Part shown: positions 657-60,030 of the stretch, piece after piece
How positions within the stretch are numbered: position 1 is the first letter of the stretch
How the letters are laid out: the number at the start of each line of letters is the position of its first letter
Source of the DNA: Corynebacterium ciconiae DSM 44920
GTDB taxonomy: Bacteria; Actinomycetota; Actinomycetes; Mycobacteriales; Mycobacteriaceae
NCBI RefSeq assembly: GCF_030440575.1
Contig: NZ_CP047189.1
Coordinates: forward strand, 496,001 to 560,000
Reading direction: 5' to 3'
DNA length: 64,000 nt
The notes under the pieces: model-generated
Told to the model about the DNA's origin: nothing
Database searches by the model: none
The model's input: only the letters and a program-made list of their open reading frames with translations
Translations under genes and position numbers: made by a program

Positions 657-668
657 GCGTCGATAAGC
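657..668 (+). repeat. Dispersed motif GCGTCGATAAGC, copy 1
   Basis: Exact 12-base copy in the short gap between the convergent ends of ipsA and otsB. See the finding on the dispersed motif. Confidence 0.75.
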
Positions 669-677
669 TGCTGGGCC

Positions 678-1439
678 TTATTTATAGTCGCGGCGAGCCT
701 CGTAGAGGGCAGTAAACATCTCCGCCACGGCTTCGAGGTCATCGTCAATGCTTAGGTGCGCCGCCGTCTGCCCAGGGCCCACCTTCACGCCCAAGTCGTA
801 ATCGCCGAGCGCGCGGAATCCATCCTCGTCGGTCACGTCATCGCCGGCAAAAACCACGCAGTCGCAATTGAGTTGCTCACGCACCGCGTCGATCCACGTC
901 CCCTTGGTGATGTCCAGCATCGCCAACTCCAGGATGTTCTTACCGACCTTGACTATCACGTCCTCGCCCGCCAGCGCTTCGCGGGCGCGGGCCAGTGCAA
1001 CGTTGCGCTGATCGGGGTTGTTCATGCGGCGCACGTGAAACACCCGGTGGAAGGGCTTGTGCTCCACATAGGAGCCGGGAAAGTCTTCGGCCACAGCCTC
1101 GAGGGCGGCGGTGCACCGCTGCAGCACGGCCACCTGCTCATCGCTCAGCGTTACTGGGGAAGAAGAGGATTCCGCCCCGTGCGATCCCACCAGCATGATG
1201 GGGGCGTTAAGCTCCACAAGCGAGGTGAGATTCTCAAGGTCACGGCCGGACAAAATAGCCACGAAAGTATTGGGCAGCAAGGCGAGCTCTTCGAGAGCGT
1301 GCATGGTGCGCTCATTGATGGGCACCTGGGTGGGATCGTCGGCGAACCCGGCGATGGTGCCGTCGAAGTCAGAAACCACCAACAGCTTGATGCTCTTGGC
1401 GGCGTCGATAATGCGGTCGGTCATGCTGCTCATAGCCAT
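678..1439 (-). CDS. otsB: Trehalose-6-phosphate phosphatase
   Basis: HAD-superfamily phosphatase that removes the phosphate from trehalose-6-phosphate in the OtsAB pathway; trehalose is both an osmolyte and the precursor of corynomycolate carriers in this group. The nucleophile motif DFDGT lies near residues 24-28 and the acidic motif FAGDDVTDEDGF near residue 200, both intact. Length (253 residues) is normal. The start is uncertain: a GTG at 1445 and ATGs at 1439, 1433 and 1424 are all in frame and none has a good ribosome site; the 1439 ATG is used here. Followed upstream on the same strand by a lipoprotein gene and otsA, so probably one trehalose operon. Confidence 0.93.
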   Translation of the reverse strand: MAMSSMTDRIIDAAKSIKLLVVSDFDGTIAGFADDPTQVPINERTMHALEELALLPNTFVAILSGRDLENLTSLVELNAPIMLVGSHGAESSSSPVTLSDEQVAVLQRCTAALEAVAEDFPGSYVEHKPFHRVFHVRRMNNPDQRNVALARAREALAGEDVIVKVGKNILELAMLDITKGTWIDAVREQLNCDCVVFAGDDVTDEDGFRALGDYDLGVKVGPGQTAAHLSIDDDLEAVAEMFTALYEARRDYK

Positions 1440-1492
1440 AGCCACCCAGTGTATCCGCTCACGGCGGGCAGCACACCCCAGCCGAGGTGCGG

Positions 1493-1966
1493 CTAGAGGG
1501 CGGAAACGAGGCGCAGCGCGGGGGCGTCGATGTCCTCCTCCGCTGAACGCAGCACTAGGCTATTCTCCTTCAGATCTACATCCAGCTCGCTGTTAAGCAA
1601 AGAGACGATGTGCTCATGAAAATACTGTGCAGCGCCCTCGCAGTGGGGCTCGTCGATGCGCAGATGCTCGAAGCGAAGCTGGGTGGCGTCGGCGGAGGTC
1701 GAGCCCTCGCCGTCGCGGGTGTAGTGCACCTCGGCTTGGAAAGGAGCACAGCCAGTATCGCCTGCCATGGTGTGCTCGCCGAGAGCCAGCACCGCCTTGC
1801 CGGCGATGGAATCCGGCAATTGGGAAGGCGAATCCGGCTGGGTGTAGACATCAGTGATGTACCAGGCGGGGCCAGTGAGTGGGTTGGGTTCGGGCTGCTG
1901 AGAACCGCAGGCGGTCAGCAGCGCGAGTGTAGACGTCACGGCTAGGGCCGCACGCAGGCGCATCAC
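1493..1966 (-). CDS. Small secreted lipoprotein between otsA and otsB
   Basis: 157 residues with a lipoprotein signal: a short basic start, a hydrophobic core and the lipobox LLTAC (Cys20). The mature part has four visible segments alternating hydrophobic and polar residues and resembles META/HslJ-type lipoprotein domains only loosely, so no function is given. The gene starts with GTG inside the otsA stop codon (GTGA, 4-base overlap; an ATG follows immediately), so it is translationally coupled to otsA. A small gene of unknown function is also found between otsA and otsB in C. glutamicum. Confidence 0.75.
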   Translation of the reverse strand: MMRLRAALAVTSTLALLTACGSQQPEPNPLTGPAWYITDVYTQPDSPSQLPDSIAGKAVLALGEHTMAGDTGCAPFQAEVHYTRDGEGSTSADATQLRFEHLRIDEPHCEGAAQYFHEHIVSLLNSELDVDLKENSLVLRSAEEDIDAPALRLVSAL

Positions 1967-3477
1967 TGCTCACCCCCAGCCTGGGTGTCGAGGGCGGAGA
2001 GGAAGGACTCGGCCCAATAGTGCACGTCATGGTCCATCACGGTGCGGTTCATCGCCTGCATCCGGTCGCGAGTATCGGCGGGGTCGTCCTTAAGATCCCG
2101 CACTGCAGACAACAGCGCTCGCTTAATGGACTCCACATCGTGGGGATTGCACAGATAGGCCTCCTGCAGCTCAGCGGCAGCACCGGCGAACTCGGAGAGC
2201 ACCAGCGCGCCGTGTCCTTCGGGATGGGCGCACACATACTCCTTGGCCACGAGGTTCATGCCGTCTTTCAGCGGGGTCACCAGCATAATGTCCGCTGCCG
2301 CATAGAGGTTTACCAGCTCGTCTTTATCCACGGTGTGGTGTAAATAGTGCACCACGGGACGGCCGATCTCACCGAAGCGGCCATTGATGCGGCCCACGGT
2401 GTGCTCCACTCGGGCGCGGGTTCGTCGGTAGTGCTCGATGCGTTCGCGGCTGGGGGTGGCCACCTGCACGATGACGGTGGTGGCGGGATCGAGTGCCCCC
2501 GTTTCGAAGAGCTCCTCGCAGGCATCAAGCCTGGCCTCGATGCCTTTGGTGTAGTCCAGCCGGTCCACGCCCACGATCATCACCTCGGGTTCGCCGAGCG
2601 TGGCCCGCAGCGCGGGAACATCAGCTGTAGACAGTGCCGCGGTGATCTCGGAGGTGTCGAGAGAGATCGGAAAGGCCCCGATGTGCACGGTGCGCCCCGT
2701 CGCGGTGGTAACGGTTGCCCGGTAGCAGTGATGCTCGGTGTCCTGCTCGGACGATGAATCCGGGCAGTCATCCTCGGGGAATTCGCTCACATCCAGCTCA
2801 TCGGGCTGGCCGGTGTGGGAGCCGGCGAGTCCGCCGACGCTCTTGGCCAGGTGCACGAAGTTGGCGGCGTCGCGATCGAGATGGAAGCCAATCACATCGG
2901 AGCCCAGCATGCCGCGCACGATCTCTTCTCGCCACGGCAGCTGGCGGAATAGATCAGGGGAGGGGAAGGGGATGTGCACGAACAAGCCGATGGTCAGATC
3001 CGGGCGCAGGTGACGCAGGATGCCGGGCACGAGCTGCAGCTGATAATCCTGCACCCACACGGTTGCGCCTTCGGCGGCGAGTGCGGCGGTGGCCTCGGCG
3101 AAGCGCAGATTCACCTCGCGGTAGGTTTCCCACCAGTGCCGGTGATACTCGGGAGTGACGATGAGATCGTGATACAGCGGCCACAGGGTGGCATTGGAAA
3201 AGCCCTCGTAGAACTCCTCAAAATCGCGCTGGCTGAGGGCAACGGGGTGCAGGTCGAAGCCCTTATCGGAGCGCAAGGGCTCGGGTTCGGCATCGGCAAC
3301 CCCAGGCCAGCCCACCCATGCGCCCTCGTGGGCGGAGAGCACCGGCGTCAGCGCGGATACGAGTCCGCCGGGGCTGGGCACCCAGCGCTGCTTCCCCGTC
3401 GAGTCACGCTCGAGATCAACGGGGAGCCGGTTGGCAACGACAATAAAGGAATAGCGTTCACTGCTAGCGCTGGACAC
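1963..3477 (-). CDS. otsA: Trehalose-6-phosphate synthase
   Basis: Glycosyltransferase family 20 enzyme that joins UDP- or ADP-glucose to glucose-6-phosphate. Family landmarks are VVANRLPVD at the N-terminus, WVQDYQLQLVP, HIPFPSPDLFR, VDRLDYTKGI and the C-terminal DGMNLVAKEYV. About 504 residues, the usual bacterial length. Starts with GTG at 3477. There is a small acidic insertion around residues 230-245 (Ser/Asp/Glu-rich). Coupled to the downstream lipoprotein and probably to otsB. Confidence 0.95.
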   Translation of the reverse strand: MSSASSERYSFIVVANRLPVDLERDSTGKQRWVPSPGGLVSALTPVLSAHEGAWVGWPGVADAEPEPLRSDKGFDLHPVALSQRDFEEFYEGFSNATLWPLYHDLIVTPEYHRHWWETYREVNLRFAEATAALAAEGATVWVQDYQLQLVPGILRHLRPDLTIGLFVHIPFPSPDLFRQLPWREEIVRGMLGSDVIGFHLDRDAANFVHLAKSVGGLAGSHTGQPDELDVSEFPEDDCPDSSSEQDTEHHCYRATVTTATGRTVHIGAFPISLDTSEITAALSTADVPALRATLGEPEVMIVGVDRLDYTKGIEARLDACEELFETGALDPATTVIVQVATPSRERIEHYRRTRARVEHTVGRINGRFGEIGRPVVHYLHHTVDKDELVNLYAAADIMLVTPLKDGMNLVAKEYVCAHPEGHGALVLSEFAGAAAELQEAYLCNPHDVESIKRALLSAVRDLKDDPADTRDRMQAMNRTVMDHDVHYWAESFLSALDTQAGGEQ

Positions 3478-3558
3478 GGGCGGGCCTAACTTCTCAAGCG
3501 ATGGATGATCGTGGCGCCGCCTATGTCTGTGCGCTCAGTGACGACGCCGCGCTGCGGT

Positions 3559-3942
3559 CTACGTAGCCTTCTTAGTGGCCTTAGAGCTGGCCTTCTTCGT
3601 AGCCTTCTTGCGCGTGGTCTTCTTCGAAGACTTCTTAGTGGCCTTCTTCGACGCTTTCTTGGAGGCCTTCTTGCGCGTGGTCTTCTTCGAGGACTTCTTG
3701 GTGGCCTTCTTCGACGCTTTCTTAGTGGTCTTCTTCTCTTCCGGCTCCTCGAACTCGGCGGCCACCTTGGAGTAGATCAACCCCTCCGGCTCGATACCGA
3801 GCATGCAGGATAGGGTGACAGCGTCGAGGAAATCCTCGGAATAGCTGGACACGATCTTTCGTGCAGCCTCGGCCGTCTCCTTTTCAACTGCGTGCAGCGA
3901 CTCGGCGGCAGTGGAACGGGTGTCAGTCACCTTGGGTGGCAA
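3559..3942 (-). CDS. Small protein with histone-H1-like lysine-rich repeat tail
   Basis: The open frame extends further upstream but into thrE; a TTG at 3942 is preceded by AGGAGG four bases earlier and gives a 127-residue protein, the best start. Residues 1-69 form an amphipathic, acidic, mostly helical-looking segment. Residues 70-127 are almost only Lys, Ala, Ser, Thr and Arg, built from KKATKK/KKASKK units and a 17-residue block repeated twice (about 74-90 and 95-111). Such tails occur on mycobacterial HU and histone-H1-like proteins and bind DNA or RNA non-specifically; here that is an inference. A small gene sits at the same place between thrE and otsA in C. glutamicum. Confidence 0.7.
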   Translation of the reverse strand: MPPKVTDTRSTAAESLHAVEKETAEAARKIVSSYSEDFLDAVTLSCMLGIEPEGLIYSKVAAEFEEPEEKKTTKKASKKATKKSSKKTTRKKASKKASKKATKKSSKKTTRKKATKKASSKATKKAT

Positions 3943-4028
3943 GGATCCTCCTGTGAGAGTGAAAAGAAAGCGGAAACAGACGTCAAGGAAGCAATTATAC
4001 GCCATGGGTGGCGCCGAGGGTGGGGCGC

Positions 4029-5516: not shown

Positions 5517-5799
5517 TGTTGAGGGCATAGGATGAGGGGATACGCGCACACCCAGCGGTGGCGAGGCCGGGTCCGCAATTTTTGGGGCGTGTACTGCGCA
5601 GATTGGCAGTCTAACGCGCGTGGGCTACTAAGTGCATACTAACTGCGCACGCCCCACTTTTCTCGCCATATTCATGGCCCGATTCATGCAGGTACTGGCG
5701 CTGGGTGGGGGTGATTGTCCGGCGCTTGGAAATACCGGCACGTGGACTGTAATATCGTGGCTCGTACCTTGCCGCCCGAGCGGGTGGGTGAGTGTGCGT

Positions 5800-5872: not shown

Positions 5873-5885
5873 CAGCGAAAAGAAC

Positions 5886-6087: not shown

Positions 6088-6870
6088 ATGTCCTCCGCCG
6101 TTGCACCTGCTCCTACTGCCACGCCCGCAGAGGTGGTGGATGCCACCCTTGCCTCCGGTGAGGCCAAGGCGGCCAAGCCACTGGTCTCGCTGATTGTCCT
6201 TGGCTTCTTTGCCGGCGCAGCCATCAGCCTCGGTGCGGTGGGCAACGTGATTCTCGCCGCCCCGCACTCGGACACAGACAGTGTTGGGCTCCTGCGCTTC
6301 ATGGGCTCGGCAGTGTTTCCGGTGGGCCTGATTGCCATCGTGCTCCTCGGCATGGAGCTCTTTACCTCCAACACGATGATGGCCGCTGGGCCGCTGCGTC
6401 GCCGCTACTCTTGGGCCGCCATGCTGCGCAACTGGGGCGTGGTGTATCTCTGTAACTTCATCGGTGCCTTCGCTATCGCTGCCGCGGCTATCAAGGCTGG
6501 GCTTTTCGACGCCCAGATGACCGACTTTCTGCTCACGCTCACCGAGAAGAAAGCTCACGCCGGTGCCGGCACCATCGTGGTCAAGGCCATCCTCTGCAAC
6601 GTGCTCGTCTGCGCCGCGGTGCTCATGGCCACGGCGGCGCGCCATAGCGTGGGCAAGATCTTCGGAATCTGGTTTCCGATCATGCTCTTCGTGCTCCTAG
6701 GCTTCGAGCACTGCGTGGCCAACATGTTCTACATGCCAGCAGGCCTGCTCGCCGGGGCCGACTACGGCATGGCGGGGATGCTGCACAACATCGTATGGGC
6801 CAGCGTGGGCAATCTCATCGGCGGCGCCGGGCTTTTTATTGGGCTGATGCTGAGCCATACCCGCAGCTAA
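6088..6870 (+). CDS. Formate/nitrite transporter (FNT) family channel
   Basis: 260 residues with about six hydrophobic membrane spans and the FNT pattern: GFFAGAAISLGAVGN in the first span, NWGVVYLCNFIGA, NVLVCAAVLMATAA, FGFEHCVANMFYMPA-like segment (here LGFEHCVANMFYMPAG) and a final NLIGGAGLF loop. FNT proteins form pentameric channels for small monovalent anions such as formate, nitrite or hydrosulfide; which one is carried cannot be told. Start ATG at 6088 has AAGGGG ten bases upstream. No metabolic partner gene is adjacent, and a terminator follows, so it is probably monocistronic. The preceding gap (5926-6087) holds a small imperfect hairpin TTTTCCCTC/GAGGGGGAAAA at 5964-5989. Confidence 0.88.
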   Translation: MSSAVAPAPTATPAEVVDATLASGEAKAAKPLVSLIVLGFFAGAAISLGAVGNVILAAPHSDTDSVGLLRFMGSAVFPVGLIAIVLLGMELFTSNTMMAAGPLRRRYSWAAMLRNWGVVYLCNFIGAFAIAAAAIKAGLFDAQMTDFLLTLTEKKAHAGAGTIVVKAILCNVLVCAAVLMATAARHSVGKIFGIWFPIMLFVLLGFEHCVANMFYMPAGLLAGADYGMAGMLHNIVWASVGNLIGGAGLFIGLMLSHTRS

Positions 6871-6977: not shown

Positions 6978-6989
6978 GCGTCGAGAAGC
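6978..6989 (+). repeat. Dispersed motif variant GCGTCGAGAAGC
   Basis: One mismatch to the dispersed 12-mer, preceded by GGTG as in the exact copies, in the gap upstream of ddh. Confidence 0.5.
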
Positions 6990-12573: not shown

Positions 12574-12580
12574 GCGCCTC

Positions 12581-13978
12581 ATGGATTCCTCCCACACAGC
12601 CGAGGAGAAACAGCCCCGTAGGTGGCGTCGTCCCCAGCGCCTGCCCCTGCGGGTGTCCGTGGTGCTCATCGTGGTCGCCATCATGGGGGTGGGCATGGTT
12701 GCCAGCGCTACGGCCGTCAATTCCATCATGCGTAGTTTCGCCTATAACGAGGTGGATGGGCAGCTGGTGGGGGCGGCCAGCGGCTGGGCGCGCAACAGCG
12801 AGCTCTATGCGAAGAAGTCCACTCAGCCCCGCCCGCCGTCGAGCTTCTATGTGGAGCAGATTTTCAGCGATGGCACCTCGGTGCGCTATAACGACTCCAA
12901 TTCCTCGCCCGACCTGTCGATGGTGCGCATCGATGAGGGGCCCTTTACCGTTGGCGCCTCACCCGGTTCGGCGGATCAATCGAAATGGCGAGTGGTGGCG
13001 ATCAGCGATAATCGCAGCGTCACCGTGGTTGCCCGCTCAGTGGCGGATGAGGAACGGCTCTTGCGTAATCTCCGCACCGCCCAGTGGGGTATCGGGCTGA
13101 TGGTGTTGGCGATCGCGGCCGGCATCGCCGCGGTGGTGGTGCATCGATCCTTGCAGCCTTTGCGTAATGTGGCCGACACCGCCGAGGCGATCACCAGTGG
13201 TGATCTCGACAGGCGTGTGCGCTACACCTCGCAGTCCACCGAGGTGGGCAAGGTGGGCGCGGCGATGAACACCATGCTGGAGCAGCTACAATCCTCGCTC
13301 ACCACCGCGAGGGACAAAGAAGAGCAGATGCGCCGTTTTGTTGGCGACGCCTCGCACGAGCTGCGCACTCCGCTGACGAGCGTGCGGGGATATGCAGAGC
13401 TCTATCAATCGGGGGCGATGGACGATCCCGATCGAGTGGTGGCGAAGATTCGCGAAGAGGCCGATCGGATGAGCGAGCTGGTGGAGGGGCTGCTGGCGCT
13501 TGCCCGCGCGGAGGGGATGACACTGAATCTGCGCGAGACTGATCTGACGGAGCTGAGCCAGCGGGTAATCGCCGACTACCGCGAGGCGGACATCACCCTC
13601 CAGAGCGACGGCCCAGCCATGGCCACGGTGGATGCCGATAAAATTCGCCAAGTACTGGTCAATCTGCTCAACAATGCGCTCGCCCACGGCGCCGAACCCA
13701 TCACGGTGCAGGTGCAGGCCACAGCCGAGCACGTGAATCTGAGCGTGGCCGACTGCGGGCCGGGCATGAACGAGCGCGACGCCCAGCACGTATTCGAGCG
13801 CTTCTACCGCGCCGATTCTTCCCGCTCCCGCGCCTCGGGCGGCAGTGGGCTGGGGCTGGCGATCGTCTCATCGCTTGTCGACGCCCACCACGGCCACATC
13901 AGCCTTCACACCGCCGAGGGGCGCGGCGCGGTCTTTACCGTATGCCTGCCGTGCAGCCCAGACGAGCCTGCGGCCTAG
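12581..13978 (+). CDS. phoS: Sensor histidine kinase (PhoS of the PhoRS system)
   Basis: 465 residues. A basic cytoplasmic start, first membrane span around residues 25-48, an extracytoplasmic sensor region to about residue 165, second span, a HAMP domain, the phospho-acceptor box with SHELRTPLTS (His near 261), then N, G1 and G2 boxes (NLLNNALAHG, DCGPGM, SGLGLAIV). Typical EnvZ-type class I kinase partnered with the preceding regulator. Its stop overlaps the stop of the convergent ferredoxin gene (4 bases shared). Confidence 0.88.
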   Translation: MDSSHTAEEKQPRRWRRPQRLPLRVSVVLIVVAIMGVGMVASATAVNSIMRSFAYNEVDGQLVGAASGWARNSELYAKKSTQPRPPSSFYVEQIFSDGTSVRYNDSNSSPDLSMVRIDEGPFTVGASPGSADQSKWRVVAISDNRSVTVVARSVADEERLLRNLRTAQWGIGLMVLAIAAGIAAVVVHRSLQPLRNVADTAEAITSGDLDRRVRYTSQSTEVGKVGAAMNTMLEQLQSSLTTARDKEEQMRRFVGDASHELRTPLTSVRGYAELYQSGAMDDPDRVVAKIREEADRMSELVEGLLALARAEGMTLNLRETDLTELSQRVIADYREADITLQSDGPAMATVDADKIRQVLVNLLNNALAHGAEPITVQVQATAEHVNLSVADCGPGMNERDAQHVFERFYRADSSRSRASGGSGLGLAIVSSLVDAHHGHISLHTAEGRGAVFTVCLPCSPDEPAA

Positions 13979-20625: not shown

Positions 20626-21519
20626 ATGCGTCCAGAACTTTCATCGTATGACCACGTCTCTGCAGGCAAGGTCCGTGAGATCTACGAGGTCGATGACGAG
20701 ACCTTGCTCATGGTGGTCTCCGACCGAATCTCGGCTTTCGACTACATCTTGGACACCGACATCCCAGACAAGGGGCGCGTGCTCACCGCCATGAGTATGC
20801 ACTTCTTCGACATTCTGGATGTGCCCAATCACCTCGCCGGCCCCATCGATGATGAGCGGATTCCGGAAGAGGTGCTCGGTCGCGCCGTTTTGTGCAAGAA
20901 GCTGAAGATGCTGCCTTTCGAGTGCATCGCCCGTGGCTATCTCACCGGCTCGGGTTTCGCCGAGTATCAGGAGCACGGCACCGTATGTGGCATCGAGCTC
21001 CCCGAGGGGCTGCGCGAGGCCTCCAAGCTGCCGGAGCCGATCTTCACCCCCGCCACCAAGGCGGAGATGGGCGATCACGATGAGAACGTCTCCTTCGAGC
21101 GGGTAGTGGAGAAGCTCGGTCAAAAACGCGCCGATGAGCTTCGCGACGCCACCCTGTCCGTCTATCGCACCGCGGCTGCCCTCGCGGAGGATCGCGGGCT
21201 GATTTTGGCGGACACCAAGCTGGAATTCGGGGTGGACTCCGAGGGCAATCTGGTTCTCGCCGATGAGGTTCTCACCCCTGACTCCTCCCGCTACTGGCCG
21301 CAGGATGGCTATCAAGAGGGCAAGGTGCAGCCCAGCTTCGATAAGCAGTATGTGCGTAACTGGCTCACGGGGCCAAAGTCGGGCTGGAAGAAGTCCGATC
21401 ACACCCCGCCGCCCGCGCTGCCGGGCTCCGTGGTGGAGGCAACGCGGGAGCGTTATATCGACGCCTATGAGCGCGTCTCTGGCAAGAAGTTTTCCGACTG
21501 GATCGGCACCTGCGTCTAA
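20626..21519 (+). CDS. purC: SAICAR synthetase
   Basis: Phosphoribosylaminoimidazole-succinocarboxamide synthase, which joins aspartate to CAIR using ATP. Landmarks: [45 protein letters not shown] and [12 protein letters not shown]. 297 residues, matching the C. glutamicum enzyme. ATG 20626 is chosen because the protein family starts here and the promoter-like TACACT precedes it; the longer frame from 20563 adds a non-homologous stretch. Confidence 0.97.
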
Positions 21520-23190: not shown

Positions 23191-24336
23191 ATGACCTCAC
23201 GCGTGCATTCTCCCAGCACGACTCCCACATCCACTCCTGATCCCCAATCGCCCGCCACGCCTGCGCCCACCGCCAAGACGGCGGGAGGCACGGCCGTGGC
23301 GACCCAGCTGGTGCGACAGCACCGGGCCACGGCCATCAAACGGTGGCTCATCATTGCCCTATTGGTGGCGGTGGCCATCGCTGGATTCATTGCCGCCACC
23401 GTGGTGGGCCCCACCGAACTGGGGCTGCGCGGGGTGGTGCAGGGACTACTTAATCCCGGTTCGCTCAGCACCCAAGACCACACCGTGCTCTACACGCTGC
23501 GCCTACCGATGTCGGTGATGGCCCTGCTGGTGGGCATCGTGCTGTCGGTCGCCGGGGCGCAGATGCAAACCATTCTGGCTAATCCTCTGGCCGAGCCCTT
23601 CACTCTCGGGATCTCCGCTGCGGCGGCCTTCGGTGGTGCGGCCACCATCGTGCTCGGCTGGGTGATTATTGATCAACCCCAGTTCAACCTCGCAATGGTG
23701 GCGTGGGTTTCGGCGATGATCGCCACCGCCGTGATCGTCGGCGCCTCTATCTGGCGCGGGGCCAGCGCCGAGACCATGATCCTGCTCGGCATTGGTTTGG
23801 TGTTCCTCTTCCAAGCACTGCTGGCCTTGATCCAATATCGCGCCTCCACCGAAGCGCTGCAGCAGATTGTGTTCTGGTCCATGGGGTCAATGACCCGCGC
23901 TACCTGGGCCGGCAATCTGGTGCTCGCAATTGTGGTGGCTATCAGCATCCCCATCTTTGCGCTCCTATCGTGGCGACTCACCGCGTTGAAGCTTGGCGAC
24001 GCCCGCGCCCAGGCCATGGGCGTGAACGTCCAACGTTTGCGCGTGGGTGTGCTCCTGCTGTGCTCGATCATGGCCGCCACGGCCGTGGCCTTCTCCGGCA
24101 TTATCGGCTTCGTCGGCCTGGTGGGCCCGCACATCGCCCGCATGCTCGTGGGCGAGGACCAGCGCTACTTCATTCCCGCCTCCGCCGCGGCGGGCGCTGT
24201 GATGCTTTCGGTATCGCACGCGGTGAGCATGCTCATTATTCCGGGGGTGGCGGTGCCCATCGGCATCATTACCGCGCTGGTAGGCGTGCCCTTTTTCATC
24301 ACCCTCATCGTGACCAAGAGGAGGAATTTGTGGTAA
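23191..24336 (+). CDS. Iron-siderophore ABC transporter permease (FecCD family)
   Basis: 381 residues with about ten membrane segments preceded by a 45-residue Ser/Thr/Pro-rich cytoplasmic start. Signatures: LRLPMSVMALLVG, GAQMQTILANPLAEPFTLGIS, and the ATPase-contact region LGDARAQAMGV followed by IIGFVGLVGPHIARMLVG. A single permease gene implies a homodimer. Ends seven bases into the ATPase gene. Confidence 0.93.
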   Translation: MTSRVHSPSTTPTSTPDPQSPATPAPTAKTAGGTAVATQLVRQHRATAIKRWLIIALLVAVAIAGFIAATVVGPTELGLRGVVQGLLNPGSLSTQDHTVLYTLRLPMSVMALLVGIVLSVAGAQMQTILANPLAEPFTLGISAAAAFGGAATIVLGWVIIDQPQFNLAMVAWVSAMIATAVIVGASIWRGASAETMILLGIGLVFLFQALLALIQYRASTEALQQIVFWSMGSMTRATWAGNLVLAIVVAISIPIFALLSWRLTALKLGDARAQAMGVNVQRLRVGVLLLCSIMAATAVAFSGIIGFVGLVGPHIARMLVGEDQRYFIPASAAAGAVMLSVSHAVSMLIIPGVAVPIGIITALVGVPFFITLIVTKRRNLW

Positions 24337-25388: not shown

Positions 25389-25400
25389 GCGTCGATAAGC
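25389..25400 (+). repeat. Dispersed motif GCGTCGATAAGC, copy 2
   Basis: Exact copy in the extended form AGGTGGCGTCGATAAGCAA-like, 56 bases before ptrB. Confidence 0.8.
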
Positions 25401-27562: not shown

Positions 27563-28180
27563 ATGGAGCTTTTCGACGCCATCTCGCGCCGCCGCGATGT
27601 GCGGGCCGAATACACCGGCGAGCGTATCGACGCCGCTTCGTTACGGCGCATCCTCGAGGCGGGACATCACGCCCCCTCGGTGGGTAATTCCCAGCCGTGG
27701 GACTTCGTGGTGGTCCAGGACCCGGCGCGCTTGGAGGCATTCGCTGAGCACGTTGCGGGCCGCCGCCGTGCCTTTGCGGAGTCACTGCCTGAGGAGCGCA
27801 AAGAGGTGTTTAATCCCATCAAGATCGAGGGGATTCGAGAATCCGGCACGGGCATTGTGGTGACATACGATCCTGAGCGTGGCGGGCCCAATATTTTGGG
27901 TCGGCACACCATTGATGAGACGGGGCTGATGAGTGTCACCCTCGCCATTGAAAACATGTGGCTTGCCGCCACCGCGCTTGGTGTAGGTATGGGCTGGGTG
28001 AGCTTTTATGAAGAGGACTTTTTGGCCGAGTTTGTGGGCTGTGTGGCCCCGCAGCGGCCCGTGGCGTGGCTGTGCGTGGGGCCGGTGAGTCATCTGGAGC
28101 AGGTGCCGGATCTGGTGCGCTTTGGGTGGAATCGTGGTCGCAGTCTCGACGCAGCGATTCATCAGGAGCGGCTGCGCTAG
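27563..28180 (+). CDS. bluB: 5,6-Dimethylbenzimidazole synthase-like flavoenzyme BluB
   Basis: 205 residues of the nitroreductase fold. Features of the BluB branch: RRRDVRAEYTGERID, HHAPSVGNSQPWDFV, GRHTIDETGLMSVTLAIENM, GMGWVSFYEEDF and WLCVGPV. BluB breaks down reduced FMN to make the lower ligand of vitamin B12. No other cobalamin gene is in the window, and a general nitroreductase role cannot be excluded. Starts one base after ptrB, so it is co-transcribed with it. Confidence 0.78.
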   Translation: MELFDAISRRRDVRAEYTGERIDAASLRRILEAGHHAPSVGNSQPWDFVVVQDPARLEAFAEHVAGRRRAFAESLPEERKEVFNPIKIEGIRESGTGIVVTYDPERGGPNILGRHTIDETGLMSVTLAIENMWLAATALGVGMGWVSFYEEDFLAEFVGCVAPQRPVAWLCVGPVSHLEQVPDLVRFGWNRGRSLDAAIHQERLR

Positions 28181-36815: not shown

Positions 36816-36827
36816 GCTTATCGACGC
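36816..36827 (-). repeat. Dispersed motif GCGTCGATAAGC, copy 3
   Basis: Exact copy on the minus strand in the 24-base gap between the convergent MHS and sialidase-like genes, with the extended GGTGGCGTC form. Confidence 0.8.
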
Positions 36828-40327: not shown

Positions 40328-40339
40328 GCGTCGATAAGC
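40328..40339 (+). repeat. Dispersed motif GCGTCGATAAGC, copy 4
   Basis: Exact copy in the extended form AGAGGTGGCGTCGATAAGCA between the convergent gntK and ftn. Confidence 0.8.
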
Positions 40340-42607: not shown

Positions 42608-42619
42608 GCTTATCGACGC
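42608..42619 (-). repeat. Dispersed motif GCGTCGATAAGC, copy 5
   Basis: Exact minus-strand copy, 40 bases after nrdF, extended form GGTGGGCGTCGATAAGCG. Confidence 0.8.
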
Positions 42620-44841: not shown

Positions 44842-44853
44842 GCTTATCGACGC
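44842..44853 (-). repeat. Dispersed motif GCGTCGATAAGC, copy 6
   Basis: Exact minus-strand copy in the leader of serB, 18 bases before the chosen GTG start. Confidence 0.75.
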
Positions 44854-48932: not shown

Positions 48933-50329
48933 GCGCGCAGCAAGCGTCGCAGGGTTTTGCCTGCTGCAGAACGCGGGATGGCGTCAACAAAGCGGACCTG
49001 CCGGATCCGTTCAAAGGGTGCGACGCGCTCGGCCACGAAGGCCATGAGCTCCTCCGGATCCACGCTAGATTCATCAGCTACCACACACGCCACCGGCATT
49101 TCTTCGCCGTGCGGCCCTATTCCTGGTACCACAGCGCAATCGGAGACTCCAGAAAAGTGCAGCACAACATCCTCCAGTTTCACTGGCGAGACCTGGAAGC
49201 CGTGGGATTTGATGATGTCTTTTAAACGGTCGACGATGAAGACTTCCTCGCGTTCATTGATATAGGCCATATCCCCAGTGCGTAACCAGCCATCTACGAG
49301 TGCGCCGTAGGAATCTGGGCCGGCACCGGCGTAGCCCTGCATCACCTGCGGCCCATATACCCACAATTCGCCCACCTCGCCGGGCGAGAGATCCTTGAGG
49401 CTTTGTGGGTCTACGATGCGCTGGCGGGTATCGCGCAGTGGAGGACCAATGGATGTCACGGGCGAGTCGGGCATACATAGGTGGGTCACCGGCGATGCCT
49501 CAGTGAGCCCATAGCCCTGACGGATCGGCACCCCCGTGCGCTCCATTGCGGCGGCGGCCACAGCTGCCGGCAGTGACGCCGCGCCGCTGATCATCTGGCT
49601 GCAGTGGGAAAAATCAATCGTGTCAACGAGGGAATGCTGGGCTAATAGCCGTGCAAGGGGAGGGGCGATGAAGGTGGTGGTGACGTGGAAGCGCTGGTGG
49701 TCGCGGAGAAAGTCCTCTGCCGAAAAGGGGGTGGCTATCACCCGTGCGCGGCAATAGAGCGGCACGGTAAGAAGTGCTGTGAGGCCATAGATATGGCTTA
49801 AGGGCAGAACTGATAGACAGGTATCCTCCGCAGCCACGTTGACACGTTCGGCGAACTGCACCACGTTGGCGCACAGGTTGCCGTGGGTGAGCACCACCGC
49901 CTTAGGTGTCCCCGTTGTACCGGAGGAGAAGGGCAGACACGCCCGATCCTGCGGAGACATAGTGGCAAAGCTGGGGGCGGGTGCGTGGGGGCGGGCGAGC
50001 ACGGCGGCGATATCCTCAGGGCTGCGCATCGCCAGCGTCGCTTGAGCATCACGCAGCTGGGCCTGCGCCTCCTCATCGCTGAGGTGCGTGCCCAGCGGGG
50101 TGGCTGTTGCACCGGCGGCAAGAACAGCGAAGAAGCAGCGGGCGAAGTCGATGCCATTAGGCAGCTGAATGCCCACCACGTCTCCAGTGCCCACCCCGCT
50201 GCTGTGGAGCGCGCCGGCGAGGTCCAGAATCTCCTCGCGCAGCTGCGGGTAGGTGATGCTGCGTTCTCTGTCTACCAGGGCGGTGTGGGAGGGCAGGGTG
50301 GCGTCGAAAAGCAATGCTGCGAGGTTCAT
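48929..50329 (-). CDS. AMP-forming acyl-CoA (or aryl-CoA) ligase
   Basis: 466 residues of the ANL superfamily. ATP-binding loop SSGTTGTPKAVVLTHGN, substrate/adenylate motif GYGLTEASPV, hinge WLRTGDMAYI and catalytic Lys in SAAGKTLRR. Joins a carboxylic acid to CoA through an acyl-AMP; fatty or aromatic substrate not decided. Starts at ATG 50329, overlapping the dinG stop by 4 bases (ATGA), so the two are co-translated. The variant repeat copy GCGTCGAAAAGC at 50301-50312 encodes part of its N-terminus. Confidence 0.88.
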   Translation of the reverse strand: MNLAALLFDATLPSHTALVDRERSITYPQLREEILDLAGALHSSGVGTGDVVGIQLPNGIDFARCFFAVLAAGATATPLGTHLSDEEAQAQLRDAQATLAMRSPEDIAAVLARPHAPAPSFATMSPQDRACLPFSSGTTGTPKAVVLTHGNLCANVVQFAERVNVAAEDTCLSVLPLSHIYGLTALLTVPLYCRARVIATPFSAEDFLRDHQRFHVTTTFIAPPLARLLAQHSLVDTIDFSHCSQMISGAASLPAAVAAAAMERTGVPIRQGYGLTEASPVTHLCMPDSPVTSIGPPLRDTRQRIVDPQSLKDLSPGEVGELWVYGPQVMQGYAGAGPDSYGALVDGWLRTGDMAYINEREEVFIVDRLKDIIKSHGFQVSPVKLEDVVLHFSGVSDCAVVPGIGPHGEEMPVACVVADESSVDPEELMAFVAERVAPFERIRQVRFVDAIPRSAAGKTLRRLLRA

Positions 50330-53823: not shown

Positions 53824-53856
53824 GTCTTCACCATACGCGTTCATGCAGCGCTTCTT

Positions 53857-54884: not shown

Positions 54885-54937
54885 CTCCGCCTTTTCCAAA
54901 GACGGCTGTGGGCTCAGCTCAGCGGGGTCTAGAGGTG

Positions 54938-54949
54938 GCGTCGATAAGC
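54938..54949 (+). repeat. Dispersed motif GCGTCGATAAGC, copy 7
   Basis: Exact extended copy (AGAGGTGGCGTCGATAAGCA) in the 134-base gap between the DUF2017 and rhomboid genes, where mycobacteria carry extra genes (mec-cysO-cysM). Confidence 0.8.
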
Positions 54950-55018
54950 ATGTAACGGGTGTAAGCGGCGTGCGTACAATCGGCTACACCACCGAGTCCT
55001 AGAAAGAGTCACCTTCAC

Positions 55019-55729
55019 ATGTCTCATGGCTATTCCCGCTATTCCCATCAGCCTGCCTATGGCGGCAGCGAGCACCCAGGTCCGGCCTATAGCCCTGCAC
55101 CGCGGAAGATGAGCCGAACCCCGCAGCGCCAGTCGCGGGGCGGTTTCGGTACCGGTGTGCGCATCGCTATCGGTTATGTGGTGGTGCTCTGGGTCGTGTT
55201 TTTTGTGCAGCAGACCGGTGCGCTGAATCTCTCGTGGTTCGGTATTCATCCGCGGGATACCTCCACGCTGTGGCATGTGCTGACATGGTCGTTTTTGCAC
55301 GCCAATATGGATCATCTCATCGGCAACACAGTGACAGGCGCACTTTTTGCTTTTCTTGTCGGCGTCACCGGCAAACGCACCTTTTGGGAAGTGACCATCA
55401 TCGCAGCCATCACGGGCGGACTGGCAGCGTGGTTTCTGGGCTATCCCGGCACGAACCACATCGGTGCCTCGGGGGTGATCTACGGCTGGCTGAGTTATCT
55501 CATCGTTCGAGGAGTGTTTAATCGCTCGCTTCGGCAGATCATTCTCGGCGTCGTCCTCGCTTTTACTTACTCGGGCTTTGTCTGGGGTGTGATTCCCACC
55601 GAGGCGGCGGTGTCCTGGCAGGGCCACCTCGGCGGGGCGCTCGGCGGGATCGTCGCCGGCGCCGTGATTACCTCAGATGACCCGGTGAGAAAGATCAGCT
55701 CGCGGCCACAATCTCCTTACGGCTACTAG
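55019..55729 (+). CDS. Rhomboid-family intramembrane serine protease
   Basis: 236 residues: a Pro/Gln-rich cytoplasmic start of about 45 residues, then six membrane helices. Active site intact: HANMDHLIGN (structural His/Asn of helix 2), catalytic Ser in GASGVIYG (about 160) and His in WQGHLGGALGG (about 204). Cuts membrane proteins within the bilayer; substrate unknown. In mycobacteria the homologue (Rv1337) also precedes murI. Confidence 0.92.
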   Translation: MSHGYSRYSHQPAYGGSEHPGPAYSPAPRKMSRTPQRQSRGGFGTGVRIAIGYVVVLWVVFFVQQTGALNLSWFGIHPRDTSTLWHVLTWSFLHANMDHLIGNTVTGALFAFLVGVTGKRTFWEVTIIAAITGGLAAWFLGYPGTNHIGASGVIYGWLSYLIVRGVFNRSLRQIILGVVLAFTYSGFVWGVIPTEAAVSWQGHLGGALGGIVAGAVITSDDPVRKISSRPQSPYGY

Positions 55730-55889
55730 TAGGCGAGACACCGCATAGGGCGCCCACCTGCGCCCCGTGCAGGCTGTACGCAGCTGCGGACTTGGGTGGT
55801 GGCTGCCTGCTGCTAGTGTTCGCGCGCCCGCCCCACTAGGCTTGCGTGCTGTGGATACCAGCGAGGACAAAGACAGCACAGGGCAGCTA

Positions 55890-56762
55890 ATGGTGGATAA
55901 TCCGTGGAATTTCCGCACGGTGGTTGATGAGTTCGGGCACGAGCGCGTACTCGCGGATCAGCCGAGTAATAACGCCCCGATCGGTATCTTCGATTCAGGC
56001 CTCGGCGGGCTCACCGTGGCGCGGTCGATCGTGGACCAGCTGCCTCATGAGTCCATTATCTACATTGGTGATACCGCACACGCCCCCTATGGGCCGCAGC
56101 CTTTGTCCAAGGTGAGAGACCACTCGCAGCGCATCGCCGATGAGCTTGTGCGCCGTGGCTGCAAAATGATCGTCATTGCCTGCAATACAGCGACCTCAGC
56201 CTTCGTGCGGGATGCGCGCGAGCGCTACAACATTCCCGTGGTGGGCGTGATCCTGCCTGCGGTGCGACGTGCTGTATCCACCACGCGCAATAACAAAATC
56301 GGCGTCATCGGCACCCAAGGAACGATCACCTCGGGCGCCTATCAAGAGTTTTTCGCCGCCTCACCACAGGTTGAGGTAACGGCCACTCCCTGCCCCCAGT
56401 TTGTGAACTTTGTGGAACGCGGAATCACCTCAGGGCGCCAGATCCTAGGCGTGGCCGAGGGGTATTTGGCGCCGCTGCAGGCGGCCGGCGTGGACACGCT
56501 CGTTCTCGGCTGCACGCACTATCCTCTGCTCTCTGGTGTGATCCAGCTGGCCATGGGCGATGATGTCACCCTCGTTTCCAGCGCGGAGGAAACCGCGAAG
56601 GATGTGTTGCGGGTGCTCAGCCAGACCGACCAGCTCGCCGATCCGGACCACACGGCGCAGCGCTCCTTCGAATCCACCGGCGATCCCGCTATCTTTGCCA
56701 CGCTGTCACAGCGATTCCTCGGCCCTCATGTGACTGAGGTCCAACACGCGCAGGGCTTGTAA
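55890..56762 (+). CDS. murI: Glutamate racemase
   Basis: 290 residues from ATG 55890. Two catalytic Cys in ACNTATSA and LGCTHYPLL, start motif [13 protein letters not shown] and [10 protein letters not shown]. Makes D-glutamate for peptidoglycan. The open frame is longer (to 55767); a GTG at 55851 is a further possible start. The extra ~25 residues before IGIFDSG ([17 protein letters not shown]) are unusual and partly acidic. Confidence 0.95.
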
Positions 56763-56823
56763 CTTTTCAGACACCGCCGCGGCTTTTTCCACATGACCGC
56801 GGCTTTAGTGGCAGAGTGATGGT

Positions 56824-57591
56824 ATGAAGTTGACCATCATTGGATGCACCGGCAGCATGGGCGGCCCCGAGGGGCCGGCGTCGGGATATCTCCTTCAGGG
56901 CGAACGCGGGCAGTCCATCATCATGGACATCGGCCCCGGGGTGCTGGCACAGCTGATGCAGATGATCAACCCCTCAGAGGCGCATGTGGTGTTTTCTCAC
57001 CTCCACGCGGACCATTGCCTCGATTTCCCCTCTCTGCTGGTGTGGCGCCGTTTCCACCCCGAAATGGCAGCCCAGGGGCGCAACCTGTGCTTCGGGCCGA
57101 GTGATACCGAGCTGCGGCTGGGGCGCATCTCGGCGGATGTCACCGATGGGGTGGATGACATGTCCGATACCTTCGCGTATTCCACTTGGACGCTGGGCCA
57201 GGCGGAGCACCTCGAGGGCATTTCTATCACCCCCTATCGAGCTATCCATCCGATCGAGGCCTATAGCCTGCGTATCGAGGAAGAAGCCACGGGAACAGTG
57301 TTCGCCTACTCCGGCGATACCAGCCCCACTGAATCCACCCGTGAGTGCGCCCGCGGGGCGGACGTGTTTCTGTGCGAGGCCACCTGGGGGTATTCCTCGG
57401 ACGATAAGCCGGAGGGGTTGCATCTGTCTGGCCGTGAGGCTGGGCGTATCGCGCGCGAGGCAGGGGTGGGCACACTGGTGCTCATTCACATTCCGCCGTG
57501 GGGCGATGCGGACGGGGCGGTGCGTGCCGCGGCCGAAGAATTCTCTGGGCCCATCGTGGTGGGTGCCCCTGGGCAGGTGTACACCGGCTAG
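56824..57591 (+). CDS. MBL-fold phosphodiesterase (Rv1339-like)
   Basis: 255 residues of the metallo-beta-lactamase fold: SHLHADHCLDF (His-x-His-x-Asp-His), Asp in SGDTSPTES and terminal His in LVLIHIPPW. The M. tuberculosis homologue, in the same place between murI and rph, has been reported as an atypical class II cyclic-nucleotide phosphodiesterase. Cytoplasmic; ATG 56824 with no clear ribosome site. The gap before it contains a direct repeat CCGCGGCTTT. Confidence 0.87.
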   Translation: MKLTIIGCTGSMGGPEGPASGYLLQGERGQSIIMDIGPGVLAQLMQMINPSEAHVVFSHLHADHCLDFPSLLVWRRFHPEMAAQGRNLCFGPSDTELRLGRISADVTDGVDDMSDTFAYSTWTLGQAEHLEGISITPYRAIHPIEAYSLRIEEEATGTVFAYSGDTSPTESTRECARGADVFLCEATWGYSSDDKPEGLHLSGREAGRIAREAGVGTLVLIHIPPWGDADGAVRAAAEEFSGPIVVGAPGQVYTG

Positions 57592-57628
57592 GCCCCTAGC
57601 ACCTAGGGAGTGAACATGGGCTGCGGTG

Positions 57629-57634
57629 TACCCT
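57629..57634 (+). promoter_or_regulatory. -10 hexamer of rph, leaderless type
   Basis: TACCCT followed by 7 bases and the ATG of rph. Confidence 0.4.
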
Positions 57635-57641
57635 GAAGCCC

Positions 57642-58373
57642 ATGACTACTAGCTTTCAGCGCGCAGATGGGCGCGCTCTCGATGAGATGCGTCCGGTCCG
57701 AATCACCCGTGGTTTCACCACCAACCCCGCTGGCAGTGTGCTGGTGGAGTTTGGCAACACTCGCGTGATGTGCACCGCTTCGATCGAGGAGTCGGTGCCG
57801 CGTTTCAAGCGGGATTCCGGCGAGGGCTGGCTCACCGCGGAGTACTCCATGCTGCCCGCTGCCACACATGAGCGGATGCCGCGTGAATCCATGCGCGGCA
57901 AGGTCAAGGGCCGCACGCACGAGATTTCTCGCCTAGTGGGGCGTTCCTTGCGCGCGGCTGTGGATTTGTCGCAGCTCGGAGAAAACACCATTTCCATTGA
58001 CTGCGATGTCCTCCAAGCCGATGGCGGTACCCGCACCGCTGCGATCACAGGCGCCTATGTGGCGCTTGCCGACGCCATCTCGGTGCTTCGTGAGCGGGGA
58101 GTGCTCAGCGGCGATCCCCTGCTGCCGCCAGTCGCGGCGGTGTCGGTGGGGATCATCGACGGCCACGTCTGCCTCGATCTTCCCTACGAGGAGGACTCCC
58201 GCGCCGATGTGGATATGAACGTGATCATGACCGACTCTGGCGAATTTGTGGAAATCCAAGGAACCGGCGAGCACAACACCTTCAGCCGCGCGGAAGTCAC
58301 CGCTATTTTGGATATGGCAGAAAAGGGCTGCCGCGAGTTGATCGACGCCCAGAAGCAGGCCCTCAAGGCCTAG
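57642..58373 (+). CDS. rph: Ribonuclease PH
   Basis: 243 residues. [43 protein letters not shown] and the [20 protein letters not shown] segment (here [17 protein letters not shown]) identify RNase PH, a phosphate-using 3'-5' exonuclease that trims tRNA ends. Ends 27 bases before rdgB. Confidence 0.97.
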
Positions 58374-58400
58374 CGAAGTTGGATTAAGGGGACTGATGCG

Positions 58401-59087
58401 ATGCTGCTGCATGTAGCTACTCACAACACCAAGAAACTCGCCGAGCTACGCCGCGTGCTCGATGCCGCAGGTATCGATAACTGCGAGCTCGTTACTACGG
58501 AAGATCTCCTCGGCTACGAGGAGCCAGTAGAAGATGGTCGCACCTTCGCCGATAATGCGCTCATCAAGGCCCGCGCCGGGGCGAAAGCCACCGGCGAGGT
58601 GACTCTCGCCGACGACTCCGGCCTGTGTGTGAAGGAAATGAACGGCATGCCGGGCGTGCTCTCTGCCCGGTGGTCCGGCGAGGGAGACGATGACGCCAAC
58701 AATGAGCTGCTATTGAAGCAGATGAAGGATGTGCCCCTGGGCCGGCGCGACGCCAGCTTCGTGTCGGTATGCGCCATCGTTACCCCAGACGGCGAAGAGT
58801 TCATCGAAAAAGGCGAGTGGGTTGGTCGTTTGCTGCGCAATCCCGTGGGCGAGAATGGTTTCGGCTACGATCCGTTGTTCGTTCCGGCCGAGGAGGATGA
58901 GCGGGTGGAGGGTACCGATGAGCGCCCCCGCAGCTCTGCGGAACTCAGCGCCGAGGAAAAGGATGCGCTGTCGCACCGAGGCAAGGCCCTGGAGGCCCTT
59001 GTGCCCGCTATCTCCTCACTGGTGACGCAGTGGGAGGCCCGCACCGCCGAGCAGTCCGAGGAAGACGAAGAGTCCTCGTCGAGCTAG
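58401..59087 (+). CDS. rdgB: XTP/dITP diphosphatase
   Basis: 228 residues of the Ham1/RdgB family that removes ITP and XTP from the nucleotide pool. VATHNTKKLAELRRVL, FADNALIKARAGAKATG, ADDSGLCV and FGYDPLFVP are in place. The C-terminus extends past the usual end with an acidic/Ser tail (EEDEESSSS). In an operon-like order with rph, as in mycobacteria. Confidence 0.96.
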   Translation: MLLHVATHNTKKLAELRRVLDAAGIDNCELVTTEDLLGYEEPVEDGRTFADNALIKARAGAKATGEVTLADDSGLCVKEMNGMPGVLSARWSGEGDDDANNELLLKQMKDVPLGRRDASFVSVCAIVTPDGEEFIEKGEWVGRLLRNPVGENGFGYDPLFVPAEEDERVEGTDERPRSSAELSAEEKDALSHRGKALEALVPAISSLVTQWEARTAEQSEEDEESSSS

Positions 59088-59117
59088 GCGCGTAGCCTTC
59101 GCGAGATCCCAGAGATA

Positions 59118-59164
59118 GCAGCACCGCCGAGTCCGATCGCAGTGATCAGGCTCGGCGGTGCTGC
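59118..59164. terminator. Bidirectional terminator between rdgB and the DUF3817 gene
   Basis: Perfect 14-base inverted repeat GCAGCACCGCCGAG/CTCGGCGGTGCTGC with a 19-base loop, between two convergent genes. Confidence 0.75.
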
Positions 59165-59184
59165 CGTGGTCGGGGGTGGGGTGG

Positions 59185-59196
59185 GCGTCGATAAGC
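59185..59196 (+). repeat. Dispersed motif GCGTCGATAAGC, copy 8
   Basis: Exact copy (GGTGGGCGTCGATAAGCG form) between the terminator and the end of the DUF3817 gene. Confidence 0.8.
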
Positions 59197-59204
59197 GGCC
59201 CGGC

Positions 59205-59564
59205 TTAGAGCTGGAAGGCGGCGGTGACTTCCTTGCGGCGGCGGGCCTCGGCCACGAAGGACAGGAAGGGGATGGTGCCGGCGAGCGCGGTGAGGATCCA
59301 GCGGATGGGCTCCCACCGAGCTTTCACACCGAGGTTCAGGGTCGCGATGAGATAGAGCATGTAGAACAGGCCGTGCAGCTGGCCAATGATGCGGGTCCAC
59401 TCCGGCATGTCGATGCCCACCACATACTCGAGAATCATGCGGGTGGTGAGGATGATTAGCCACACACCGGTGACCCACGCCGCGATGGAGAATAGTTTCA
59501 GCGCGTTACGTACGCGCTCCTGCCGTTGTGGGGTGGGGGTTAGGCGTTGAGAAGAAGACGTCAT
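59205..59564 (-). CDS. DUF3817 integral membrane protein
   Basis: 119 residues, three membrane spans. ALKLFSIAAWVTGVWLIILT and IIGQLHGLFYMLYLIATL are characteristic of this actinobacterial family (Rv1342c-like). Function unknown. The next gene on the strand ends 6 bases away. Confidence 0.88.
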   Translation of the reverse strand: MTSSSQRLTPTPQRQERVRNALKLFSIAAWVTGVWLIILTTRMILEYVVGIDMPEWTRIIGQLHGLFYMLYLIATLNLGVKARWEPIRWILTALAGTIPFLSFVAEARRRKEVTAAFQL

Positions 59565-59570
59565 GTTTAT

Positions 59571-59996
59571 CTAGGAACTTTCGTTGGTTTCGGCGGAGGG
59601 GGAACGAGGGGAGCGACGCTGCTCATTGAGCGAGTTGAAGGTGTCTACATCCACACTGGGGCGGCGGGGCAGAAAATTCTCATCGATCTCAGTCATTTCT
59701 CCGCGCTCAGCAATACGACGATCCACGGGGGAGACATCCTCGCCATCGTCAAGCATCTCATTTTCGTACTTGAGATAACTCCGGTAGGCGTAGACAATAA
59801 AGGCCCCAAAAAACGGCCACTGCAGCGCATAGCCCAAGTTTTGGAAGGTACCCGATCCCGACTGGAATCGCGTCCACTGCCAATAGGCCAAGCCGAGCGT
59901 GGCAGCCACCGCGAGGGCGACAAATACAATCATCCCGACCGACGCGCGCTTGCGAGGACGCGGCGAAGAGGACGGCTCACCCTGATTAGTACTCAC
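59571..59996 (-). CDS. Small membrane protein (Rv1343c/LprD position)
   Basis: 141 residues: a basic Ser/Pro-rich start, two membrane spans (about 22-40 and 60-76) and a charged cytoplasmic tail. No lipobox is seen, although the mycobacterial gene in this place is called lprD. Starts at ATG 59996, forms a pair with the DUF3817 gene. Function unknown. Confidence 0.8.
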   Translation of the reverse strand: MSTNQGEPSSSPRPRKRASVGMIVFVALAVAATLGLAYWQWTRFQSGSGTFQNLGYALQWPFFGAFIVYAYRSYLKYENEMLDDGEDVSPVDRRIAERGEMTEIDENFLPRRPSVDVDTFNSLNEQRRSPRSPSAETNESS

Positions 59997-60018
59997 AACC
60001 GTCTACGATACCCAACAC

Positions 60019-60030
60019 GCTTATCGACGC
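60019..60030 (-). repeat. Dispersed motif GCGTCGATAAGC, copy 9
   Basis: Exact minus-strand copy just upstream of the membrane protein gene, between it and tRNA-Leu. Confidence 0.75.

Follow-up and report, generated by a model that had tools for sequence, protein, structure and literature searches.

A recurrent 12-base word in a 64-kb window of the Corynebacterium ciconiae genome

The window considered here is a 64-kb stretch of the C. ciconiae DSM 44920 chromosome (positions 496001-560000 of the 2,584,365-bp single-contig genome, G000), in which a 12-base word, GCGTCGATAAGC, recurs between and within genes. Ten exact copies were found, all of them where the original prediction, made from the letters of the window, had placed them. 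By our own gene model nine of these are intergenic, in agreement with that prediction. The copies at 657..668 (+ strand), 36816..36827 (-), 40328..40339 (+) and 59185..59196 (+) occupy gaps between convergent genes, and those at 25389..25400 (+), 42608..42619 (-), 44842..44853 (-), 54938..54949 (+) and 60019..60030 (-) occupy gaps between tandem genes. The remaining exact copy (93..104, -) is within a predicted gene (7-648, +).

Allowing up to one mismatch gave 18 matches in the window against 0.47 by chance, and a tolerant form of the word, GCRTCGNNAAGC, gave 19 against 0.53 expected; the reversed tolerant pattern matched once. Tolerant-form copies other than the exact ones were GCGTCGAAAAGC at 6501..6512 (-), 27568..27579 (-) and, within a predicted gene, 50301..50312 (+); GCGTCGAGAAGC at 6978..6989 (+); and GCGTCGACAAGC at 13873..13884 (-), which is the commonest one-base variant of the sampled genome (48 copies). 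The matches to GCGTCGGCAAGC at 58064..58075 (-) and 63322..63333 (+) were joined by GCGTCGCGAAGC at 21138..21149 (-) and GCGTCGCCAAGC at 23991..24002 (-), two weak variants that may be due to chance. The three one-mismatch copies predicted earlier are present, but the total is eight, with additional copies at 6501, 13873, 21335, 27568 and 27622. The interval from 7 to 25 kb, described as empty, is therefore occupied by one-mismatch copies at 13873 and 21335, and also by the tolerant-form matches at 21138 and 23991.

Abundance, placement and anatomy of the word

The exact word occurs 296 times in the whole genome, slightly unevenly between the forward (130) and reverse (166) orientations, and the reversed word is absent (0 copies). 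We analysed 60 stretches of 20 kb together with the window, amounting to 1.264 Mb of the 2.584 Mb (49%), and the figures in this section refer to this sample. Here, GCGTCGATAAGC was the commonest of all 12-mers, with 145 copies. A home-made gene model predicted 1075 genes (85% coding), and according to it 71 of the 145 exact copies were strictly between two genes, 65 were in genes, 6 were partly in genes and 3 lay at stretch ends. Altogether 74 of the 145 touched no predicted gene, against an intergenic share of the sequence of 14.8%. The description of the motif as nearly always intergenic thus holds in the window but not over the 1.264 Mb, where only 71 of 145 copies qualify. A count far above the reversed control and an excess in intergenic sequence, the two properties on which the original prediction turned, were both found.

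The 71 intergenic copies were distributed over divergent (19), convergent (13) and tandem (39; 23 on the same strand and 16 on the opposite one) gaps. Every type of gap and both orientations are used, which bears out the earlier view that neither a promoter nor a terminator accounts for the motif; gene orientation at the copies led us to reject promoter, terminator and regulator-site readings. Within genes, 46 of the 65 copies were antisense and in the single phase in which the gene encodes Leu-Ile-Asp-Ala, as expected for a word that is kept where the protein sequence permits.

Copies are spread evenly. The 63 pieces of 20 kb contained 315 tolerant copies between them (mean 5.0 per piece, variance 3.8), no regional clustering was detected in the sampled half of the genome, and the dense run from 36 to 60 kb noted in the window looks like ordinary fluctuation. 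With the terminus set by GC skew, the replication-strand bias that the original prediction had raised was not seen across the 63 pieces (73 leading and 71 lagging exact copies; 145 and 170 tolerant copies, p 0.18). A single piece, L079 (G000:C1:1763001-1783000), was devoid of tolerant copies; it has the lowest GC content (0.57) and looks like a catabolic block that was acquired, with genes for a ring-hydroxylating dioxygenase, an acetaldehyde dehydrogenase, an IclR regulator and a DUF3427 helicase. One empty piece among 63 is near chance (0.42 expected).

The site is non-palindromic and asymmetric, with a strict core: of the single-base changes, those at position 8 alone were frequent (A 27, C 48 and G 32 copies). 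The changes at position 1 gave 10, 9 and 10 copies, a few copies were changed at position 9 or 10, and just one copy was found for all nine possible changes at positions 2, 4 and 5 taken together. Counting the reversed word along with its single-base variants gave 11 copies. In the 80 copies that were not wholly intragenic, the 26 bases of the 5' flank contained G at a frequency of 0.48 and C at 0.18 (0.31 each in the genome), while G was present at positions -1 and -4 in 80% of the 74 gene-free copies. The flank figures use copies not wholly in genes, the G-rich flank of coding copies being partly a matter of codon periodicity. On the 3' side, a preference was seen chiefly at the first two bases, and no longer shared unit was apparent past the core and its G-rich side.

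Distribution, dialects and apparent losses in the genus

The original prediction had proposed a search of related Corynebacterium genomes, and the motif was found genus-wide. Across 151 genomes the exact word reached at most 361 copies and was missing from 18 of them. The tolerant form, GCRTCGNNAAGC, split these genomes into 107 with >130 copies (maximum 932), 36 with <=50 and 8 in between; the reversed tolerant control averaged 28, with a largest value of 61. The 36 low genomes were mostly at the level of the control, a few being somewhat higher (47 against 21 in G062, 49 against 18 in G082). Over the genus, tolerant copies totalled 26,897 on the forward and 26,821 on the reverse strand. In two genomes, G003 (12, control 35) and G030 (14, control 44), the tolerant pattern was rarer than the reversed control, possibly reflecting avoidance or an effect of composition.

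Exact counts in named genomes, which were taken from matches to a longer word and are not a random sample, were 326 for C. gottingense, 281 for C. sp. 74A, 225 for C. sp. Marseille-P4321, 212 for C. sp. HMSC074A01, 183 for C. riegelii, 144 for C. bouchesdurhonense, 86 for C. haemomassiliense, 78 for C. senegalense, 65 for C. stercoris, 47 for C. yonathiae, 31 for C. sputi and 13 for C. lubricantis; five genomes from other genera had 1 to 5. A wider draw from the family comprised 201 genomes of 31 genera, 16 of the genomes being Corynebacterium. The 185 others were near or under the control, except for a few with a mild excess, several of which belong to one genus, g23 (for example G245, 156 against 88). 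In another genus of the family, G250 had 171 tolerant copies and 46 reversed ones, which could reflect codon usage or a related word.

The base at position 3 varies between species. We searched GCATCGNNAAGC, which has A at this position, alone and compared its count with the tolerant total. Nine genomes carried A in 87-99% of their 175-742 copies: G006 (535/569), G053 (551/562), G073 (156/175), G094 (317/323), G105 (513/549), G111 (486/514), G138 (511/526), G143 (646/742) and G144 (494/498). G prevailed in the remaining genomes with >130 copies, C. ciconiae having A in 21 of 632, and G084 was mixed, with few copies (73 of 103 with A). Related words were also seen in 60 kb of each of three motif-poor genomes, namely TCGTCGGCAAGC in G110, GCATCG(A/G)CAAGC in G094 and GCGTCG[GTC]CAAGC in G048.

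We built a midpoint-rooted tree from six neighbour genes of 47 genomes, whose branch supports were not inspected. The five A-form genomes included (of the nine) fell within one clade, to which the motif-free G014 also belongs. Hundreds of scattered sites thus differ jointly at one base between clades. The tree contained 24 motif-free genomes, 16 of which formed a single clade, in which ComEC was longer and TadA matches were weaker; the other eight correspond to about six further losses (G039; G041-G062-G120; G082; G132; G133; G014). No clear new dialect word emerged from G120, G132 or G014 (60 kb searched in each) or from G062 (40 kb), and the motif-free lineages may have lost specificity or shifted it beyond the patterns searched. 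The 40 kb of G062 (contig C7, within L247 or L248) did contain a family of related words (GAGAAATGAACCCC and its neighbours), with some 78 copies, which looks like an array of clustered regularly interspaced short palindromic repeats (CRISPR).

Conservation in place and absence from prophage loci

We aligned 56 kb of C. ciconiae, containing 14 tolerant-form sites, with the corresponding loci of a relative, G124. Ten of the 14 sites were identical, two had one tolerated change, one was altered by four ungapped substitutions and one fell in a gapped stretch. Identity in the flanks (80 bases) of aligned sites was 0.53-0.89, with a mean of about 0.75. Conversely, each of the 12 sites of G124 was paired with a tolerant-form site in C. 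ciconiae. The copies are mostly orthologous, old and maintained, and for those in genes constraint on the protein may add to the conservation.

A search for phage portal proteins gave matches in 16 of the 151 genomes (13 above the family cut-off), at 19 places. In 13 portal loci of about 4 kb from 11 motif-rich genomes we found 0 tolerant motifs, as against 10.3 expected from each genome's own motif density; the G019 locus, to which 1.2 of the expectation is due, scored under the family cut-off, leaving 12 loci without it, and two of the three G112 loci scored identically, perhaps as duplicates of a single prophage. In motif-free genomes, three portal loci also had 0, and three more such loci were uncounted. 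Extending three of the regions to 12 kb again gave 0, as against 10.8 expected, although these regions are unannotated and parts may be non-phage. With overlaps counted once, the prophage total was 0 in about 76 kb, where about 17.6 were expected. In contrast, 27 comEC or tad loci of motif-rich genomes, which served as the control, contained 125 motifs against 95.6 expected, and none of the 27 was empty, yet 30 of their 111 4-kb pieces were. Several prophage loci were as GC-rich (0.63-0.67) as motif-bearing DNA, so that composition is no obvious cause of the absence.

Genes for transformation machinery

C. ciconiae has adjacent comEA (encoding SLBB and helix-hairpin-helix domains), comEC (481 amino acids) and holA genes, a prepilin peptidase gene, and a tad locus encoding a CpaE-like protein, TadA, TadB, TadC, a Flp-type pilin and TadE/TadF-like proteins, the names at this locus being assigned from sequence and position. 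Across the 151 genomes, ComEC was found in all 151, a T2SSE-family ATPase in 148 (145 above the cut-off) and prepilin peptidase in 149 (141 above the cut-off), the latter being absent from two motif-rich genomes, G058 and G138. Transformation of Micrococcus luteus is reported to require tad genes, and tad together with comEA/comEC is described as frequent in actinobacteria (PMC4322843). With comEA, comEC, tad and the peptidase present, the genus possesses the requirements for import of this kind. We did not use gene presence as proof of uptake, prepilin peptidase being near-universal; the word is missing from 36 of the 151 genomes, the machinery genes are near-universal, and the type of these genes differs mainly in one clade.

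Pfam searches with 31 ComEC proteins of the genus gave PF03772 alone in 30, the last showing also DUF4131 under the cut-off, and a Lactamase_B domain was detected in none of the 31 at E 0.001 (for example L053:16091-17536). The ComEC open frame was <640 amino acids in 84 of 90 genomes with >20 exact copies and in 14 of 43 with <=3. We nevertheless rejected the idea that the type of ComEC predicts the motif, since open-frame length is a rough measure, Pfam revealed no lost nuclease domain, and the signal comes mostly from one clade. The stretch preceding the Competence domain was longer in the motif-free clade.

The pilins of the nine tad loci examined in the motif-free clade differ, and all nine of these loci (L293-L301) have TadB- and TadC-like sequences in one frame, which are separate in motif-rich loci. 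This fusion was rejected as proof of loss, since tad-2 of M. luteus is fused likewise (PMC4322843). A TadE-like protein of G020 could be matched over half of its length at all 8 motif-rich tad loci and at 1 of the 13 motif-free ones, a pattern that largely follows phylogeny. By analogy with ComP (PMC6370729) and ComN (PMC12616744), TadE/TadF-like pilins are candidate receptors for the word; ComEA and ComEC are further candidates.

A candidate DNA uptake sequence

We propose, with a probability of roughly 0.7, that the word is a DNA uptake sequence, or self tag, of Corynebacterium. The proposal draws on its abundance, distribution and dialects, its conservation in place, its absence from the tested prophage loci and the presence of machinery genes. 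We also think it probable that Corynebacterium evolved self-recognition for transformation independently, with a genus-wide word, dialects and a reader in the Tad/Flp or ComEA/ComEC system. As an uptake sequence it would be without precedent both in Gram-positives and in association with a Tad pilus, and from the tree it would date back to the ancestor of most of the genus, with about seven losses since.

On the mechanism that we infer from these genomes, Corynebacterium species would take up DNA, and the word would raise its uptake. Double-stranded DNA bearing the 12-bp core (GC-R-TCG-NN-AAGC, flanked 5' by a G-rich stretch) would be bound at the cell surface by a component of either the Tad/Flp pilus or the ComEA-ComEC importer. 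Such tagged DNA would be imported more often, one strand passing through ComEC and then recombining into the chromosome. Tagged fragments would replace untagged alleles more than the reverse, and the word would accumulate and stay exact where tolerated, in intergenic gaps and, within genes, mainly in the Leu-Ile-Asp-Ala phase. DNA arriving by other routes would remain without the word, and a shift in receptor preference would reset it genome-wide, giving rise to a dialect.

Several observations weigh against this proposal, its main weakness being that competence genes appear intact in several lineages without the motif. To our knowledge, Corynebacterium is not known as naturally transformable, and nothing in the titles and abstracts searched reports that it is. 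The motif-free genomes also have ComEC, prepilin peptidase and, mostly, the T2SSE-family ATPase; G014, G132 and G133 retain pilins of the motif-rich type and G039 a tad locus, all without the word, and the link between the motif and the type of ComEC or TadA is largely that of one clade. Tolerant copies were fewer in low-GC stretches (rho 0.28, p 0.001), a trend to which we give no weight because exact copies showed none (p 0.38). At about one tolerant copy per 4 kb, the density is lower than the thousands per genome reported for DNA uptake sequences (DUS) and uptake signal sequences (USS) (PMC3630211). The prophage and conservation results would, moreover, suit a chromosomal binding site too.

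Such a site would be bound by a nucleoid, condensin or segregation protein dependent on regular spacing, and it corresponds to the chromosome-organising protein of the original prediction. We regard it as unlikely, although it retains some plausibility: the spread is even, with a variance below the mean, the copies are conserved in place, absent from the tested prophage loci and biased towards non-coding sequence. However, sites of the kind of FtsK orienting polar sequences (KOPS) would be expected to show a leading/lagging bias, which neither exact (73/71) nor tolerant (145/170) copies show, and the clustering typical of parS or matS was not seen in the sampled half of the genome. It would also be unusual for hundreds of such sites to switch one base together and for the sites to be lost, as they apparently were, in several lineages. 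Chi, KOPS and parS/matS are over-represented chromosomal words and in that respect resemble the Corynebacterium word, which differs from them in its lack of strand bias or clustering, its longer core and its dialects.

A Chi-like recombination signal, acting within the cell and not at uptake, would fit a G-rich asymmetric site with a core-genome, prophage-poor distribution. The balance between replication strands led us to reject Chi as well as KOPS; the intergenic excess, a 12-bp core much longer than the 5-8 bp of Chi, and dialects that differ at one base over hundreds of sites make such a signal highly improbable. The earlier suggestion that the motif guides recombination was the nearest guess, but the evidence favours a tag for the uptake of self DNA. 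We give still less credence to a small mobile or decaying repeat, also suggested previously, or a global transcription factor site, which would account for dispersed copies with an intergenic excess but not for the lack of a longer shared unit beyond the G-rich side, the near absence of variants save at position 8, or the indifference to gene starts and orientation. The copies are mostly orthologous, with 12 of 12 bases identical while the flanks diverge, and the one altered copy shows four ungapped substitutions. Mobile repeats such as miniature inverted-repeat transposable elements (MITE) or repetitive extragenic palindromes (REP) were rejected, since 12 of 14 sites are kept within the tolerant form in G124 and the spectrum of variants is narrow.

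Comparison with known systems and significance

The USS of Pasteurellaceae consist of a core word with a one-sided, compositionally biased flank, which is AT-rich where that of Corynebacterium is G-rich. They resemble the present word in having dialects and serving a preference for self DNA, which for Corynebacterium is a prediction, and they differ in the word, AAGTGCGGT, the Gram-negative host and the predicted receptor ComN (PMC12616744). The DUS of Neisseriaceae, read by the minor pilin ComP, are similarly short asymmetric words with hundreds of copies, an intergenic excess, a core-genome bias and species dialects following phylogeny (PMC3630211). The DUS word, GCCGTCTGAA, belongs to another phylum and a type IVa pilus, whereas here the pilus is of Tad type, copies are fewer and uptake is predicted. 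Inverted pairs of DUS form terminators; here, one closely spaced pair was found among the 71 intergenic copies. The Corynebacterium word, GCGTCGATAAGC with its dialects, matches neither GCCGTCTGAA nor AAGTGCGGT. It would work like DUS and USS, differing in word, phylum and pilus class, and we do not file it as a member of either.

Tad/Flp transformation in M. luteus shares with C. ciconiae the phylum, a tad cluster, comEA, comEC and a prepilin peptidase, and differs in needing two tad clusters, where one tad locus was examined in C. ciconiae; the term 'uptake sequence' has 0 occurrences in the paper on that system (PMC4322843). In the literature, DNA uptake that depends on sequence is described in Neisseriaceae and Pasteurellaceae, both Gram-negative families (PMC5031613, PMC3630211), and one paper calls the requirement for an uptake sequence unique to Neisseria and Pasteurellaceae (PMC3630211). 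The titles and abstracts searched held nothing relevant on uptake sequences with Corynebacterium or Actinobacteria, and the 12-mer itself is, by inference, apparently absent from the published texts searched.

If the proposal is correct, the word would represent a third, independent origin of sequence-specific uptake, in Gram-positive actinobacteria, and natural transformation would be native to a genus that comprises commensals of the skin, pathogens and strains used in industry. The evolution of uptake specificity could then be tested over >100 species with natural dialect switches and losses. Tagged DNA would become a genetic tool, and matching dialects to proteins could find the Tad-type DNA receptor.

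Apart from the word, the sampled stretches of C. ciconiae contained a 3.1-kb repeat of 99.9% identity (L066:1-3142 and L096:15529-18670), possibly a ribosomal RNA operon or a mobile element.

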